This document shows positions 8,387-58,626 of a DNA stretch of 64,000 nt, one piece after another. The stretch is from positions 124,001 to 188,000 of the forward strand of contig NZ_LBNQ01000022.1 of assembly GCF_001005215.1 (NCBI RefSeq), read 5' to 3'. A program made the position numbers and the translations under genes. Source of the DNA: Lampropedia cohaerens. Lineage in GTDB: Bacteria > Pseudomonadota > Gammaproteobacteria > Burkholderiales > Burkholderiaceae_C. Under the pieces are notes generated by a model that worked only from the letters and a program-made list of their open reading frames with translations, did no database searches and was not told the origin of the DNA. Position 1 is the stretch's first letter, and each line of letters opens with the position of its first letter.

Positions 8387-9265
8387 ATGAACACCAACGA
8401 CGAGCAGCACCTAACCGAGGACTCCACCGCAGACCGCGCGGCCGCCGGCGTTTCGCCGGCATCGGCGCACCGGATGGATGTGCCTCGACGCAGAAAGGGC
8501 ATATACATGCTGCCCAACCTCGTTACGCTGGCGGCCTTGTTTTGTGGCTTCTATGCCATCGTCATGGCGATGGAAGGACGCTTCAGTGTGGCGACGCTGG
8601 CCATCTTTGCCGCCATGGTGCTTGACGGGCTCGATGGACGGGTTGCGCGCATGACCAAAACCCAAAGCGCATTTGGCGAGCAGATGGATTCGCTGTGCGA
8701 CATGGTTTCGTTCGGCGCGGCGCCGGCGCTGGTGGCCTATGTCTGGGCGCTGCACGAGCTCGGACGCTGGGGCTGGACGGCCGCATTTATCTACTGCGCC
8801 TGTGCCGCGCTGCGGTTGGCGCGCTTTAACGTCAACACTTCCGTGGTTGACAAGCGGTGGTTCCAGGGCCTGCCTTCGCCGTCCGCCGCTGCGCTGGTCG
8901 CCGGCTTCATCTGGCTGATGACGGACGAGGGCAGGGGTTACGAGACCTACCTGTCCGAGACCACCATGGCCGCGCTGATGTTCGTTATCACCTTGTACAC
9001 GGGCATTGCCATGGTGACCAATCTGCCGTTCTACAGCTTCAAGGACTTGCAGGTTCGCCGCAGCGTTCCGTTCGTCAGCGTCGTGCTCATCGTGCTGATC
9101 ATTGCCATCATCAACATCGATCCACCCCTGGTGCTTTTTGGCATGTTTGTTGTCTATGCCTTCAGCGGCCTGGCGGTGTATGCACGCCGCAAGGCCCGTG
9201 GCGAGCCCGTAAGCGTCATCAGCACGTCAACCGACGAGCCTGAAGAGCAGGGACTCCACAAGTAA
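8387..9265 (+). CDS. pssA: CDP-diacylglycerol-serine O-phosphatidyltransferase
   Basis: 292 residues. This inner-membrane enzyme makes phosphatidylserine, the precursor of phosphatidylethanolamine. The CDP-alcohol phosphatidyltransferase signature is split over DGLDGRVARM and FGEQMDSLCD (DGxxAR..G..xD..xD pattern) at about residues 85-105. Roughly eight hydrophobic spans follow. The first 40 residues are polar and variable. This is the eukaryotic-like membrane form, not the soluble E. coli type. It lies just past the ilvC terminator and so has its own promoter. Confidence 0.94.
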   Translation: MNTNDEQHLTEDSTADRAAAGVSPASAHRMDVPRRRKGIYMLPNLVTLAALFCGFYAIVMAMEGRFSVATLAIFAAMVLDGLDGRVARMTKTQSAFGEQMDSLCDMVSFGAAPALVAYVWALHELGRWGWTAAFIYCACAALRLARFNVNTSVVDKRWFQGLPSPSAAALVAGFIWLMTDEGRGYETYLSETTMAALMFVITLYTGIAMVTNLPFYSFKDLQVRRSVPFVSVVLIVLIIAIINIDPPLVLFGMFVVYAFSGLAVYARRKARGEPVSVISTSTDEPEEQGLHK

Positions 9266-46819: not shown

Positions 46820-46881
46820 TCGCTGCACTCCTTGATCCCGAAAATGCTAGCTGCACGAATCGCGCTGGACGATGACGAAAC

Positions 46882-46900
46882 GAGAATTCTAATCATCCTC
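46882..46900 (-). promoter_or_regulatory. Candidate Fur box upstream of the iron importer
   Basis: The minus-strand 19-mer GAGGATGATTAGAATTCTC matches 13 of 19 positions of the classical GATAATGATAATCATTATC box, 63 bases before the binding-protein start. Confidence 0.5.
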
Positions 46901-47004
46901 ATGTCAAAAATTCGTTGCAGCGCTGGCACTTCGTCGGGGGCGGCAGCATGTCCGCACGCGCATGTCACAACGGCGTCAGCGCAGGGCTGACGGCAATGCA
47001 TTGC

Positions 47005-54102: not shown

Positions 54103-54180
54103 GCGGCTGTAGCTCAGTTGGATTAGAGTACTTGGCTACGAACCAAGGGGTCGTGGGTTCGAATCCTGCCAGCCGCACCA
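54103..54180 (+). tRNA. tRNA-Arg (anticodon ACG), first copy
   Basis: 78 bases including encoded CCA. Acceptor GCGGCTG/CAGCCGC, anticodon stem CTTGG/CCAAG with loop CTACGAA (ACG at 54138-54140), T stem and loop GTGGGTTCGAATCCTGC. A TAGAAT at 54086-54091 lies 12 bases upstream and is probably its -10. Confidence 0.97.
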
Positions 54181-54259: not shown

Positions 54260-54337
54260 GCGGCTGTAGCTCAGTTGGATTAGAGTACTTGGCTACGAAC
54301 CAAGGGGTCGTGGGTTCGAATCCTGCCAGCCGCACCA
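54260..54337 (+). tRNA. tRNA-Arg (anticodon ACG), second identical copy
   Basis: Identical over all 78 bases to the copy at 54103. The flanks differ, so the duplicated unit is the tRNA itself or the flanks have since diverged. Confidence 0.97.
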
Positions 54338-54499: not shown

Positions 54500-54958
54500 T
54501 CAGGCGCTTTTGCCCAATGCACCTGCGTGCTGCAGGCACGCGGCGCACACTACCTGCACATCCACGCTGAATGCCCGAAACTGCCCGCCCTGCCTGGCAA
54601 CCAGCATCCTTACATACTCCTCCAATTCATCGCCAGGCAACTCCATGGATTGTCCGCAACTGACGCAGGTGGCAATGGCAGCGTGATTGCCGGTACTCCT
54701 GAGCACATACAGCGCCTTCCTGTTCGCACTCCAGTGCACATCAACAAGACCGCAGGCCGTCAACTGCTTGAGCACGGCATATACCGTGCTCAGATTGGCT
54801 CCGCGGTCGCTTTCCAGCAACTCCAGATAAATCTGGTGCACATCTATCCCACAGCTTTTGGACTGCAGGACCTCAAGCACGCGCAGGCGCGGCACGGTCG
54901 CCTTGAGGCCGACGCCTCGCAGCAACGTGACATTGTCAGTGGTTATATCGGTCAGCAT
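54500..54958 (-). CDS. Fur-family transcriptional regulator, atypical
   Basis: 152 residues. The winged-helix half (LRGVGLKATVPRLRVLEVLQ, then ANLSTVYAVLKQL) and the structural zinc pairs C98/C101 (CVSCG) and C138/C141 (CAAC) are Fur-like. The usual HHxDH metal cluster before CVSCG is reduced to one His (GNHAAIATC). The expected His before the last Cys pair is missing (FSVDVQVVC). The Arg of TVYRVL is Ala. It may respond to something other than Fe2+. It is downstream of and parallel to the TonB receptor gene (both minus). Confidence 0.87.
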   Translation of the reverse strand: MLTDITTDNVTLLRGVGLKATVPRLRVLEVLQSKSCGIDVHQIYLELLESDRGANLSTVYAVLKQLTACGLVDVHWSANRKALYVLRSTGNHAAIATCVSCGQSMELPGDELEEYVRMLVARQGGQFRAFSVDVQVVCAACLQHAGALGKSA

Positions 54959-55057
54959 CGTGCACAGTCCTAGTAACGGGCCGATGTTGCCGCAATGTCA
55001 GCGACATCCAGCCCTGCCCCACCGCATGGAGTGATGGCCACGCGGTGGGGTGATTCA

Positions 55058-57238
55058 TCACTCGAAGCGATAGGTCGCGTTGAGCATGTAGGAGCGGCCC
55101 GGCCCGACGTTGGCGAAGATGCCGACGTGCGAGGCTTCGTACATACGCGTATCGGTGATGTTATTCACATTGAACTGCACCGACCACGCCGGATTGATGT
55201 CGTAACGCGCCATTGCATCCCACCGCACGTGGCTGGGCAAGACCAGGCGGTTGGCATCATCGGCGTACCGCTCGCCAACGTAGGTGGCGCCACCGCCCAG
55301 CGTCAGCCCGGGCAGGATTTCGTAGGTTGACCATACACTCGCATTCTGCTTGGCAACGAACTTGATTTGATTGCCGTCGAACACGTTATTGCCGCTGCGG
55401 TAACGGATGATCTTGGGGTCCAGATAGGAGTAGCCCGCCCAGATGCTCCAGGCCGGCGTGATCGATCCGGCCACCCCCAGTTCTGCGCCCCGAACACGAT
55501 TGTTGCCGCCCAAGGTGACGTCACCGGAAACAGGGTCGGTGGAGCGCGCGTCGGTCTTTTCTGTCTCGAATACAGCTGCTGTGAGGGAGAGCCGCTGATG
55601 AAGTACGTCCCACTTGGTGCCCAGCTCCCAGCTACGGCTCTTCTCCGGCTTCACGTCACGGATCTGCGCACCACCTGCAACGCCATCAGCACCACCGCCT
55701 TGCCCCAAGTTCTCCCCTGCAGGGTTGGACGATGTGGCATACGAAAGGTAAATGCTGCCGTAAGGCACCGGTTTGTAGACCAGTCCGAGCTGGTAATTCC
55801 AGAAGCTGTCTTTCCGGCTGGCCGTCTGGTTGGACACCTCGAATATTTCGCGCCGCAGTCCCGCGTTAACCGAGAACTGCTCATTTAGTTCAATCGTATC
55901 CATCAAGTAGAGCGATTTGGTACGGATGCTTCCATCCTTTTCCTTGTCGCCGTACGTAATGTTGAAGTCGTAATGCTTGTGCGGATTCGGGTTATACAGT
56001 GAATCATGTTCCCGCCCCGGACCACCGCTCATGGATCGGCTGTAAATATTCTCGCGGCTAAACTCGAATCCGGTGCTGAAGGAGTGCTTTAGTCCGCCGA
56101 TCTGCACCGTGCCGTACAAGTCGGTCTGGTTGATCAGTGATTTGGCAGAGCGCCAGCGCATGCGGTCGTCCCTGCGGAACTGCACGTCGGGCCCTTCATC
56201 CGCGCAGGGTGGGCCTGCATTGGCCGCGCAATTGTCGAAGGTCGGCCGCGTCATCAGATAGTGATTCAGGCTGTCGGAGTGGCGGGTGATGTTGCGAACC
56301 GTCAAATCCGGCGAGAAGTCGTGTTCCAGCTTGACAGTGCCGGTCTTGATGGTGTTTTCACGGAAGTCCGCATTCAATCGGCCGTAGACGTTCTCGCGGT
56401 CCACGACAGGCGGCCGGTTTCGGTCAGGATTGGCGGCATTTCTGAACGGGATGCCCCAATCCGGGAAGTCATTGTTTTCCACGTGCGAATACGACAGCGT
56501 TGCCCGGGTCGGCGTTCCCAGGCCAAACGCGATGGAAGGCGCAACACCAAAACGATCCACGCCAATGCCGCCTCGGCCGGGCACCTCGCCGCCCATGCGC
56601 ATCACGTTCAAACGCGCAGCGATCGTCTCGCTGATGGGGAGGTTCACATCCGCAGTGGTGCGCCACTGCCCGGCATTGCCTGCGCCAGCGGTCGCCTCCA
56701 CGAAGCGATGCGCCTTGGGTGTCTTGGTAGTCAGGTTGATGCTGCCGCCCGTGCCACCCCGTCCGGTATAGGCGGAGCTCGGGCCCTTGATGACCTCGAC
56801 GGACTCCAGGTTGAAGGTCTCGTGCGAGCCGCGCGCGTAGTCACGCACGCCATCGATGAAGATGTCGGTGCTCGCTTCGTAGCCTCGCACAAAGGGCCGA
56901 TCTCCGGTCGGCGTGCCGCCTTCTCCCGAACCCAGCGTAATGCCGGGCGTGGTACGCAGCACGTCCTGCAGCGACGTAGCGCCACGGTCGCGCATGAGCT
57001 CCTCGGTGATGATGGTCACCGAACGCGGCGTCTCCAGCAGTGGCGCGGTGAACTTGGGACTTTGCGCTGCCACCGGTGCCTGGTAGCTGGCGGCAGGGGC
57101 CGTAACCGTCACCTCCTCCAGCTGCTGCACCTGCTGCGCAAGCGCTGGCGCACACGAAAGGCCTGCGCCGACCGCCGCGACGCCCAGCGGGCCATCCCTG
57201 CCTGGGCGGGCGAGCTGGCAAATGCAGACTGGAAACAC
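55058..57238 (-). CDS. TonB-dependent siderophore receptor (FhuE/Fiu-like)
   Basis: 726 residues as read from a GTG at 57238. It is an outer-membrane ferric-siderophore receptor. A TonB-box-like LEEVTVTA follows the signal peptide (GVAAVGAGLSCAPALAQ). The plug domain has TPRSVTIITEELMRDRGATS, FVRGYEASTDIFIDGVRDYA and ESVEVIKGPSSAYTGRGGTG. The 22-strand barrel ends at YMLNATYRFE. A much better start is the ATG at 57294 with AGGAG ten bases upstream. It reads in a different frame and would join the signal peptide if one C were added at 57189-57191. So the 5' end may be frameshifted. Confidence 0.9.
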   Translation of the reverse strand: MFPVCICQLARPGRDGPLGVAAVGAGLSCAPALAQQVQQLEEVTVTAPAASYQAPVAAQSPKFTAPLLETPRSVTIITEELMRDRGATSLQDVLRTTPGITLGSGEGGTPTGDRPFVRGYEASTDIFIDGVRDYARGSHETFNLESVEVIKGPSSAYTGRGGTGGSINLTTKTPKAHRFVEATAGAGNAGQWRTTADVNLPISETIAARLNVMRMGGEVPGRGGIGVDRFGVAPSIAFGLGTPTRATLSYSHVENNDFPDWGIPFRNAANPDRNRPPVVDRENVYGRLNADFRENTIKTGTVKLEHDFSPDLTVRNITRHSDSLNHYLMTRPTFDNCAANAGPPCADEGPDVQFRRDDRMRWRSAKSLINQTDLYGTVQIGGLKHSFSTGFEFSRENIYSRSMSGGPGREHDSLYNPNPHKHYDFNITYGDKEKDGSIRTKSLYLMDTIELNEQFSVNAGLRREIFEVSNQTASRKDSFWNYQLGLVYKPVPYGSIYLSYATSSNPAGENLGQGGGADGVAGGAQIRDVKPEKSRSWELGTKWDVLHQRLSLTAAVFETEKTDARSTDPVSGDVTLGGNNRVRGAELGVAGSITPAWSIWAGYSYLDPKIIRYRSGNNVFDGNQIKFVAKQNASVWSTYEILPGLTLGGGATYVGERYADDANRLVLPSHVRWDAMARYDINPAWSVQFNVNNITDTRMYEASHVGIFANVGPGRSYMLNATYRFE

Positions 57239-57294: not shown

Positions 57295-57882
57295 GGGTCG
57301 TGAACTCCTGGTTGAAGAAAGAAACGCTTTCGCACCCCGAACGCTTGGCCGTTGCCTCTCCGATACAAGCACACCGATTTCCGATACGCTGAGCGCGTCG
57401 TAACCGGTTACCGACTACGACGCCATCTGCCGTAGGCATGTAGTGAACTGGCCGTGTCGCCCAGCGCCACACCATCGATAGAAAAACAACTAAACTCAAG
57501 AATGAGATGCGATCTCGTTAAGACTATCGACGGCTTCGTGAAATCTGCGTGGAATTTCCGGCGGGATATCAGAAGATGACGTGATAAACACGGCTGGAAT
57601 ACGAGGATTTATTGTTTTCACATTTATTTCACGAGGCGGCTGCTACCCTGATTGCCTCTCATTTACTTCGCGTTCCATCGCCTGCATGATCGCCGCACCA
57701 GCATCTGATGATCTCCCGCGTCATGCGCCCGTGCTGGGCATCATGGTGCGGCGCGAAACGGGCTTGCCTTATCAGGCAATGCGTTGCCACGGCAGATGCT
57801 GTCATGCATTTCTGGCTAGGCCATGGCCACGGCAGCAAGCATGGCTTGTGCGTCGCACTGCCCCACGTGATCGCGGCTGGCT
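57295..57882. other. Divergent region between TonB receptor and response regulator genes
   Basis: 588 bases. It contains the receptor ribosome site (AGGAG near 57306), a Fur-box-like palindrome at 57501-57519 and an AT-rich stretch at about 57580-57640. The rest is GC-rich with short frames lacking ribosome sites and recognisable content. No gene is called. Confidence 0.5.
57501..57519. promoter_or_regulatory. Candidate Fur box upstream of the TonB receptor
   Basis: The 19-base quasi-palindrome AATGAGATGCGATCTCGTT (minus strand AACGAGATCGCATCTCATT) matches 14 of 19 positions of AATGAGAATGATTCTCATT, the form I expect for Fur sites in non-enteric bacteria. It lies about 207 bases before the likely receptor start. 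Confidence 0.55.
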
Positions 57883-58626
57883 ATGCAGCCCATGAACCAA
57901 TCCTCCGGCACGACTGCCCTGTCCCACACGATCCTGATCGTGGAGGATGAGCGCGCCATTGCGGAAAATCTGCTGCTCACGCTTGAAAGCGAGGGCATGG
58001 TGGCGGACATTGCCCGCAACGTCGCGGCAGCGCGCTACTTTCTTCAGAAGGAGCACTACGATCTGGTGGTGCTTGACATCGGCCTACCCGACGGCGACGG
58101 CCATCAAGTAATCAAGCATCTACGCGAGCAACTCCAGCTGTCCACCCCCGTGCTGGTGCTGACCGCCCGCACCGCGCTGGAGGACAAGATCGCCGGTTTC
58201 AGCTTCGGTGCGGATGACTACCTGACAAAGCCCTTTGCGCTGGAAGAGTTGGTGCTGCGCGTGCGCGCGCTGATCCGCCGCTCCAAACAGCTGTCAGAAA
58301 GTATGTTTGTGCTGCGCCACGGCCCGCTGGAAATGTCGCTCAGCCATCGGCAGGTTACGGTGCACGGCAAGGAAGTCAGGCTCACGCGCAAGAGTCTGCT
58401 GGTGCTGGAGTGGCTGATGCGCTACGGTGGGCGGGTCGTGCCGCGCGAGAAGCTGGAGGACATCCTCTGGCATGGCGAGCCCCCTTCGGGCGATGCCTTG
58501 CGCAGCCAGTTGCACCTGTTGCGCAAGGCCTTGCAGGCGCACGGCTACGACGGCATCGAAACGGTACATGGCATCGGCTGGCGGCTTGCTGCGACCACAC
58601 AGCAGCCGACAGACAGCCCGCCTTGA
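57883..58626 (+). CDS. OmpR/PhoB-family response regulator, orphan
   Basis: 247 residues (an ATG three codons in is an alternative start). Receiver domain at about 15-130 with the acidic pocket in IVEDERA, phospho-acceptor D65 (LVVLDIGLPDGDG), LTART and K116 (DDYLTKPFAL). The winged-helix output is at about 145-237 (EVRLTRKSLLVLEWLMRYGG, then VPREKLEDILW, VHGIGWRL). It is QseB/PmrA-like. No histidine kinase gene lies beside it; NarX/NarL genes follow on the other strand but form their own pair. Confidence 0.9.
   Translation: MQPMNQSSGTTALSHTILIVEDERAIAENLLLTLESEGMVADIARNVAAARYFLQKEHYDLVVLDIGLPDGDGHQVIKHLREQLQLSTPVLVLTARTALEDKIAGFSFGADDYLTKPFALEELVLRVRALIRRSKQLSESMFVLRHGPLEMSLSHRQVTVHGKEVRLTRKSLLVLEWLMRYGGRVVPREKLEDILWHGEPPSGDALRSQLHLLRKALQAHGYDGIETVHGIGWRLAATTQQPTDSPP

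Follow-up and report, generated by a model that had tools for sequence, protein, structure and literature searches.

A Fur paralogue without an intact iron site beside a siderophore receptor gene of Lampropedia cohaerens

The analyzed DNA, hereafter the window, is a stretch of 64,000 nucleotides from contig NZ_LBNQ01000022.1 of Lampropedia cohaerens (positions 124,001 to 188,000). It contains a gene encoding a Fur-like protein, a gene encoding a TonB-dependent siderophore receptor located 99 bp upstream on the same strand, and a divergently transcribed response regulator gene (Table 1). The receptor scores 309.8 bits against TIGR01783 (cut-off 223.5) and 477.4 bits against the Fiu model, which is below the cut-off of 686. 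Its N-terminus is split over two frames: the homologous start is read from 57294, and the segment 57238-57294 (minus strand) lies in a different frame from the main ORF, which reflects either a mutation or an assembly error. No partner kinase gene accompanies the response regulator gene in the window; in contig C35 of genome G152 the kinase gene follows directly. Two tandem tRNA-Arg(ACG) genes (54103-54180 and 54260-54337) adjoin the Fur-like gene.

Table 1. Features of the receptor and Fur-like gene locus (window coordinates)
Feature	Position	Strand	Basis or remark
Sensorless Fur paralogue, 152 aa	54500..54958	-	ORF, Pfam, alignment, model
Second structural Cys pair, C138-x2-C141	54536..54547	-	Alignment
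First structural Cys pair, C98-x2-C101	54656..54667	-	Alignment
Place of the HHxDH regulatory cluster, reads NHAAI, residues 91-95	54674..54688	-	Translation, alignment
Recognition helix, residues 56-68, LSTVYAVLKQLTA	54755..54793	-	Helix in model; alignment
GC-rich 13-bp stem-loop at the receptor/Fur-like junction, no T-run after it	55017..55050	-	Folding
TonB-dependent siderophore receptor, Fiu-like	55058..57238	-	Pfam plug and barrel
Fur-box-like palindrome AATGAGATGCGATCTCGTT	57501..57519		Between the receptor gene and the divergent response regulator gene
OmpR-type response regulator, divergent	57883..58626	+	Pfam

The junction between the receptor and Fur-like genes is predicted to fold strongly. 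A 108-nt stretch covering it folds at -50.2 kcal/mol (z -3.2), which none of 200 shuffled sequences matched, and no terminator is listed at this place. The stem-loop may lower expression of the downstream gene or protect the receptor transcript end. At locus L139 (genome G136), where the Fur-like gene also directly follows the receptor gene, a GC-rich stem-loop was seen by eye behind the receptor stop codon (around 8970-9005).

A preliminary description of this DNA, made from the sequence alone, had proposed an intact gene for a Fur paralogue with a Fur fold stripped of its iron site, and this holds on several grounds. The reading frame begins with ATG and has no internal stop, and its G+C content by codon position (0.62, 0.43, 0.71) is coding-like; together these rule out a frame artefact. 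FUR (PF01475) is the only listed Pfam family above its cut-off (58.1 bits versus 23.1), and the top PDB sequence match is V. cholerae Fur (E 3.3e-17). A structure model based on just two aligned rows, the window protein and L143 (a Fur from a viral contig), reached a mean pLDDT of 74.5, compared with only 39.9 for an AlphaFold model made without an alignment. In this model residues 7-144 adopt a predicted Fur fold, with the winged-helix and dimerisation parts of the superfamily. It resembles P. aeruginosa Fur 1mzb (Foldseek E 1.9e-9; VIA comparison: Z 14.9, rmsd 4.2, 133 residues aligned). The DNA-binding half matches best, with 38% identity and an rmsd of 1.4 Å over 80 residues when compared with the DNA-binding domain of E. 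coli Fur. The canonical Fur row in the alignment may have aided the predicted fold; the sequence evidence for the fold is independent of the model.

The regulatory site S2 of Francisella Fur is composed of His33, Glu81, His88, His90 and Glu101 (PMC6123631). Alignment of the window protein revealed replacement of three of these residues (H33 by Gly, E81 by Val, H90 by Ile), as well as of D89 (Ala), H125 (Phe) and H132 (Val); the last of these is the histidine before the second Cys pair, whose loss had been noticed earlier. The possibility that the ligands are conserved in shifted positions was ruled out by the alignment. The only histidine remaining in the cluster is H92, which aligns with H88, or with H87 if the region is read ungapped. 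The earlier statement that most metal ligands are lost and that the HHxDH cluster is reduced to H92 thus needs one amendment, as two acidic ligands that it passed over, E106 (equivalent to E101) and E113 (E108), survive. At most H92 and E106 of S2 are left; since these two residues and E113 persist, some metal could still bind. The structural Cys pairs are intact, as had been claimed; E. coli C93/C96 is the counterpart of C98/C101, and C133/C138 that of C138/C141. We call proteins of this kind sensorless. A PA2384/Fur2-type sensorless Fur, by our own definition, combines a Fur DNA-binding domain, the absence of an intact iron site and linkage of the gene to iron uptake genes, all found here.

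The canonical Fur of the same genome (L001) lacks three of the four structural cysteines (replaced by Thr, Ser and Ala), all of which are present in its sensorless paralogue. By eye, the other Fur proteins of the genus resemble it in this loss, with one more Cys retained in that of the sister species G153.

The recognition helix reads STVYAVLKQL, in agreement with the earlier reading of TVYAVL in place of TVYRVL. Of the base-reading pair of iron-sensing Fur, Tyr56 is present (Y60), but Arg57 of E. coli is replaced by Ala61; a lysine (Lys64) lies three residues on. Other residues of the DNA-contact half present in the alignment are K19 (the Lys of the L1 loop), R24 and T58. In MgFur, surface plasmon resonance detected no DNA binding by R57A and a very weak signal for Y56A, while K15A bound DNA at 977 versus 85 nM (PMC4506495). 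Since R57A abolishes DNA binding by MgFur in vitro, binding of DNA by the window protein may be weak or even absent. Arg57 is present in 39 of the 39 canonical Fur rows gathered (the Fur of this genome being counted twice). The lysine three residues past position 57 occurs in all four rows without R57 (the window protein, L048, L049 and L050), as against 0/39 canonical rows. Its position corresponds to that of N60, a helical turn beyond R57; as the Zur of the same genome has a lysine there too, this residue does not prove compensation for the lost arginine.

Family-level models place the protein outside the named groups. It scored below the cut-off of each NCBIfam equivalog matched: Fur (66.8 of 146 bits), Zur (38 of 167), IrrA (25.3 of 150), Irr (18.8 of 170) and the best PerR model (26.5 of 180); no Mur model was among the NCBIfam models matched. 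In the phylogenetic tree 12 canonical Fur rows form a clade (99/98) that excludes the window protein, and the branch separating it from 10 Zur-like rows has moderate support only (80/79). Membership of Zur or Irr, which had been named as a possible refutation, was rejected on both grounds, as was identity with PerR. The window protein groups with L048, L049 and L050 (91/87) and most closely with L048 (100/97); these four proteins are referred to below as its subclade. The sensorless rows, which may or may not share a single origin, were gathered on the same side of a branch in 5% of the bootstrap replicates. In this tree long branches meet, and two canonical rows (cFur_L016 and cFur_L031) are filled in less than half of the columns.

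The genome contains three PF01475 genes: canonical Fur, a Zur-like gene and the gene described here. Fur and Zur-like genes were found in 10/10 genus members searched, and further PF01475 genes, six in all, in four of them. Five of the six are sensorless: the window gene, L048 in G153, L049 in G154, and L050 and L051 in G152. The sixth, L106, was left out of the sensorless set as it groups with Zur-like rows (98/97), despite keeping only two S2 ligands like the window protein. The search was extended to 55 genomes of relatives, from which 20 stretches were read, covering 22 of the 33 non-genus family genes scoring no more than 62.6 bits. Sensorless genes were identified in L107, L108, L110, L111 (two genes), L112, L113 and L114; another, L139 in G136, was found through the receptor search only. 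Thirteen sensorless rows were aligned, with L108 omitted as a near-copy of L107 and the short L111b, devoid of a C-terminal domain, included.

None of the 13 rows has H33 or E81, and in every row the five S2 ligands are reduced to two or fewer. The closest relative, L048 of the sister species, is 39% identical to the window protein, and it lacks the same ligands and the arginine. As the loss of ligands is common to relatives, it is more than chance and no local accident. Other features vary within the set: at least one structural Cys is gone from 6/13 rows, while the Cys4 site is kept in the window's subclade, and R57 is kept in nine rows and replaced in exactly that subclade (by Ala in the window protein, by Val in L048, L049 and L050).

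Searches beyond these genomes added little. A profile built from five rows was run against 397 family genomes, where its own training rows (four of the five in the sample) scored 192-213 bits and the best other sequence 115.7 bits; absence by this profile proves little, because L139 was found only via the receptor search. Named genomes yielded a single match (residues 91-141, in an Oscillospiraceae MAG), which was not used. No sensorless relative was detected in viral contigs, where one canonical-type Fur (L143) was found. Matches on plasmids comprised 41 records, all below 60% identity, and the two Cupriavidus and one Variovorax matches read have an intact HHDH motif. A sensorless Fur-like frame (L151, a match of the L051 protein) was observed on plasmid NZ_CP070344.1 of Variovorax sp. 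PDNC026, where it overlaps the end of an ABC-exporter ORF; it stands outside all counts, as a named example from beyond the window's genus.

Sensorless genes are associated with TonB-receptor genes. Among the loci fetched, the latter were present in 9/12 with sensorless genes and in 0/14 with other Fur-family genes (Fisher p 7e-5, treating loci as independent, which L107 and L108, with nearly identical proteins, are not). This count refers to loci of 8.6-17 kb and excludes L151 and L138-L142, the latter having been fetched for their receptors. The receptor HMM, trained on the window, L048, L049 and L050, is circular with respect to them, with the window receptor confirmed by Pfam; the neighbours in L112 and L114 were poorly read, as the greedy ORF caller took antisense frames. 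Starting from the receptor, five of the six homologues with 51-100% identity (in the window's genome, G153, G152, G136, G022 and G128) share their locus with a Fur-like gene, the exception being G128 (receptor identity 70%). For more distant receptors (35-44%), three loci were read, L140-L142, and these have no Fur-like gene. Within the genus, a window-type receptor at 70% identity or more occurs in only 3/10 members, all of which have the Fur-like gene.

The gene order differs among these loci. The locus of the sister species G153 contains response regulator and kinase genes divergent from the receptor gene, followed by genes for a YbiX/PiuC-type hydroxylase, an FMN dehydrogenase and the Fur-like protein. 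The same order is found in C35 of G152 (L051), where the Fur-like ATG overlaps the dehydrogenase stop codon. In G136 (L139) the kinase and regulator genes are divergent and the Fur-like gene begins 38 bp behind the receptor gene. A Fur-like gene precedes the receptor gene in G022, and also in G018, where a PiuC gene and a second, short Fur-like gene follow. FecR and receptor genes are close to the Fur-like genes of L107 and L108, and L108 also has an ECF sigma gene. In L050 the order is receptor, methyltransferase and Fur-like gene, and in L049 the receptor gene is about 6 kb ahead, with HlyD- and MacB-type genes before the Fur-like gene.

The preliminary description had also placed a Fur-like box at the receptor gene, and a palindrome is indeed present in the intergenic region upstream of it. 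It differs by one mismatch from AATGAGA-N5-TCTCATT, a betaproteobacterial form of the Fur box. Four sites with up to two mismatches to this form were found in the genome, and none with the reversed control. The E. coli 19-mer consensus gave no site in the genome at up to three mismatches, and the palindrome itself scores only 11 of 19 with it. In random sequences modelled on the 644-bp intergenic region (first-order Markov samples, not exact shuffles), a site as good appeared in 4/200 by one consensus (14 of 18) or 11/200 by a second. A second Fur-box-like stretch of the window (46879-46903) scores as high as the palindrome or higher, depending on the consensus used. Another of the four genomic boxes (L145, G000:C33:240056-240074) lies between genes that appear, by eye, to be of isochorismatase and flavodoxin types.

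Boxes with up to two mismatches were found in 6/12 sensorless loci (the window, listed as L105, and L048, L107, L108, L110 and L113) as against 0/14 others, and in five of the nine sensorless loci with a receptor gene. No box at this threshold was detected in L049, L050, L051, L111, L112, L114 or L139. With three mismatches allowed, the numbers rise to 8/12 (L049 and L111 being added) versus 2/14, and the reversed control is positive only in L119 among the 26 loci.

Starting from what was observed – the fold, the loss of ligands and its recurrence, the receptor linkage and the Fur box – we tentatively propose, with confidence somewhat short of even, that the window encodes a metal-blind Fur paralogue, produced from a Fur-controlled receptor locus, which would act on Fur-type operators and probably opposes Fur there. 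Given its Fur box, the locus should be kept silent by holo-Fur as long as iron is abundant. Under iron scarcity the receptor would be made and, behind it, the Fur-like protein, whose state should not follow iron, as there is no intact S2 site; it would thus act whatever the iron level. It would then bind to Fur-type palindromes, those of its own locus and perhaps further ones, with a read-out altered by the loss of R57 and the presence of the lysine three residues on. By analogy with PA2384/Fur2 of P. aeruginosa, from which the sign of the effect is taken, such a protein would oppose holo-Fur and create positive feedback on iron uptake. Competition at operators is favoured over poisoning of dimers because the DNA-binding half, and not the dimer domain, is common to the set. 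Our confidence is held down by the loss of R57 in the subclade, the fast divergence and weak codon-position bias of the gene, and the apparent reduction of the locus.

Because of this apparent reduction, the main rival is a relic under relaxed constraint: a former local regulator of the receptor operon, drifting after the loss of the kinase, PiuC and dehydrogenase genes and damage to the receptor start. Homologues of these three genes of G153 were not detected in the window (tblastn, E <= 1e-3); a PiuC gene, 59% identical to that of G153, is located elsewhere in the genome. To this and the split receptor start may be added the damage in G152 (L051, 8231-10745), where the receptor ORF is shortened to 284 aa and the FMN dehydrogenase gene is divided between two frames, and a patchy presence among genus members (3/10). 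The Fur-like proteins of the window and G153 have diverged faster than the receptors (39% versus 73% identity), and the comparison of the two Fur-like genes shows a weak codon-position bias (0.41, 0.44, 0.59), which together suggest loose constraint. On the other hand, each of the three genus loci of the window-type receptor, the damaged ones included, has an open Fur-like frame, and the window frame has coding-like G+C. The four cysteines, Y60, R24 and the fold have been kept, and the ligand loss, being common to relatives, is older than the damage to the locus. We regard the relic as unlikely.

Alternatively, the protein could be a local repressor or activator with another input, which caps or drives receptor expression independently of iron, or responds to a siderophore, to haem, to redox state or to the divergent response regulator. 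The association with a single type of receptor and with genes of two-component or FecR/ECF-sigma kind would fit such a role, as would the Cys4 site kept in the subclade. The alignment, however, revealed no new conserved set of ligands. The haem or redox signal suggested in the preliminary description found no support: the extra Cys36 is absent from the closest relative, and the structural cysteines are incomplete in several other members of the set. We find this reading rather improbable.

More doubtful still is a dominant-negative subunit that pairs with the Fur of the same genome through its dimer domain, giving heterodimers without one metal site and one base-reading arginine. Retention of the dimer domain and Cys4 site together with loss of the S2 ligands and R57 in the whole subclade is what such a subunit would be expected to show, the behaviour of MgFur R57A is in line with it (PMC4506495), and PA2384/Fur2 offers a partial precedent for an effect against Fur. 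Yet most sensorless proteins (9/13) have R57 and nearly half (6/13) lack a structural Cys, the canonical Fur of this genome has itself lost three of the four, and Fur2 is described as having no dimer domain (PMC8768829); what all have in common is the DNA-binding half.

A conventional Zur, Irr, PerR or Mur that uses alternative ligands would share the fold and Pfam family, but is very improbable in view of scores far below the cut-offs of the models matched (Fur, Zur, Irr and PerR), the position outside the canonical Fur clade and, at moderate support, apart from Zur rows, and the presence of canonical Fur and a separate Zur-like gene in the genome.

The preferred reading, of a metal-blind paralogue opposing Fur at operators, could be extended to a class of receptor-linked antagonists in the Burkholderiaceae. 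A siderophore locus would produce its own Fur-derived antagonist, whose competition with holo-Fur for a shared palindrome would keep an active locus on even as iron starts rising, and in the window's subclade base reading would have shifted from Arg57 to the lysine one turn later. In this general form the idea is speculative, and we think it unlikely to hold. Recurrent paralogues of Fur, the textbook iron switch, that have its DNA-binding half but no iron site and lie near particular siderophore receptors would nonetheless mean a further, local level of iron control, and they would form a set of proteins for study alongside PA2384/Fur2. For annotation they carry a warning, as a "Fur family regulator" encoded beside a receptor gene need not sense iron.

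Several known systems can be compared with this locus. Canonical Fur (PF01475; 1mzb, 2w57, 8j6w) shares with the window protein the fold over residues 7-144, the DNA-binding half and the structural Cys4 site; the window protein differs in its incomplete S2, in Ala in place of R57 and in its NCBIfam score (66.8 versus 146). Loci combining a Fiu receptor with a PKHD hydroxylase (YbiX/PiuC) are similar in that the window receptor best fits the Fiu model and G153 has the full set, whereas the window has no hydroxylase gene at the receptor locus. The Fur antagonists YdiV and YlaN/Fpa have been described as countering Fur. To our knowledge, neither is a Fur paralogue.

The closest precedent, compared by description only, is PA2384/Fur2 of P. 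aeruginosa, a Fur homologue without the metal-sensing part that is linked to iron uptake. Iron starvation induces PA2384, and without it expression of siderophore and uptake genes is severely lowered; whether it acts directly or indirectly is stated to be open (PMC10281387). Fur2 is promoted by PvdS and HxuI (PMC10281387, PMC8768829) and is needed for HxuI-driven activation (PMC8768829), and its gene is found upstream of lldS-lldA, close to an iron-uptake region (PMC11389411). The entire C-terminal domain, which serves iron binding and dimerisation, is missing from Fur2 (PMC8768829), whereas the window protein keeps this domain together with the Cys4 site. A sensorless Fur paralogue as such is therefore already known. 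Among the titles and abstract openings surveyed, which are no proof of absence, none describes sensorless Fur paralogues beside TonB receptors in betaproteobacteria; relative to that literature, what is new is the receptor-linked set and, within it, a subclade in which R57 is replaced and the dimer domain and Cys4 site are retained.
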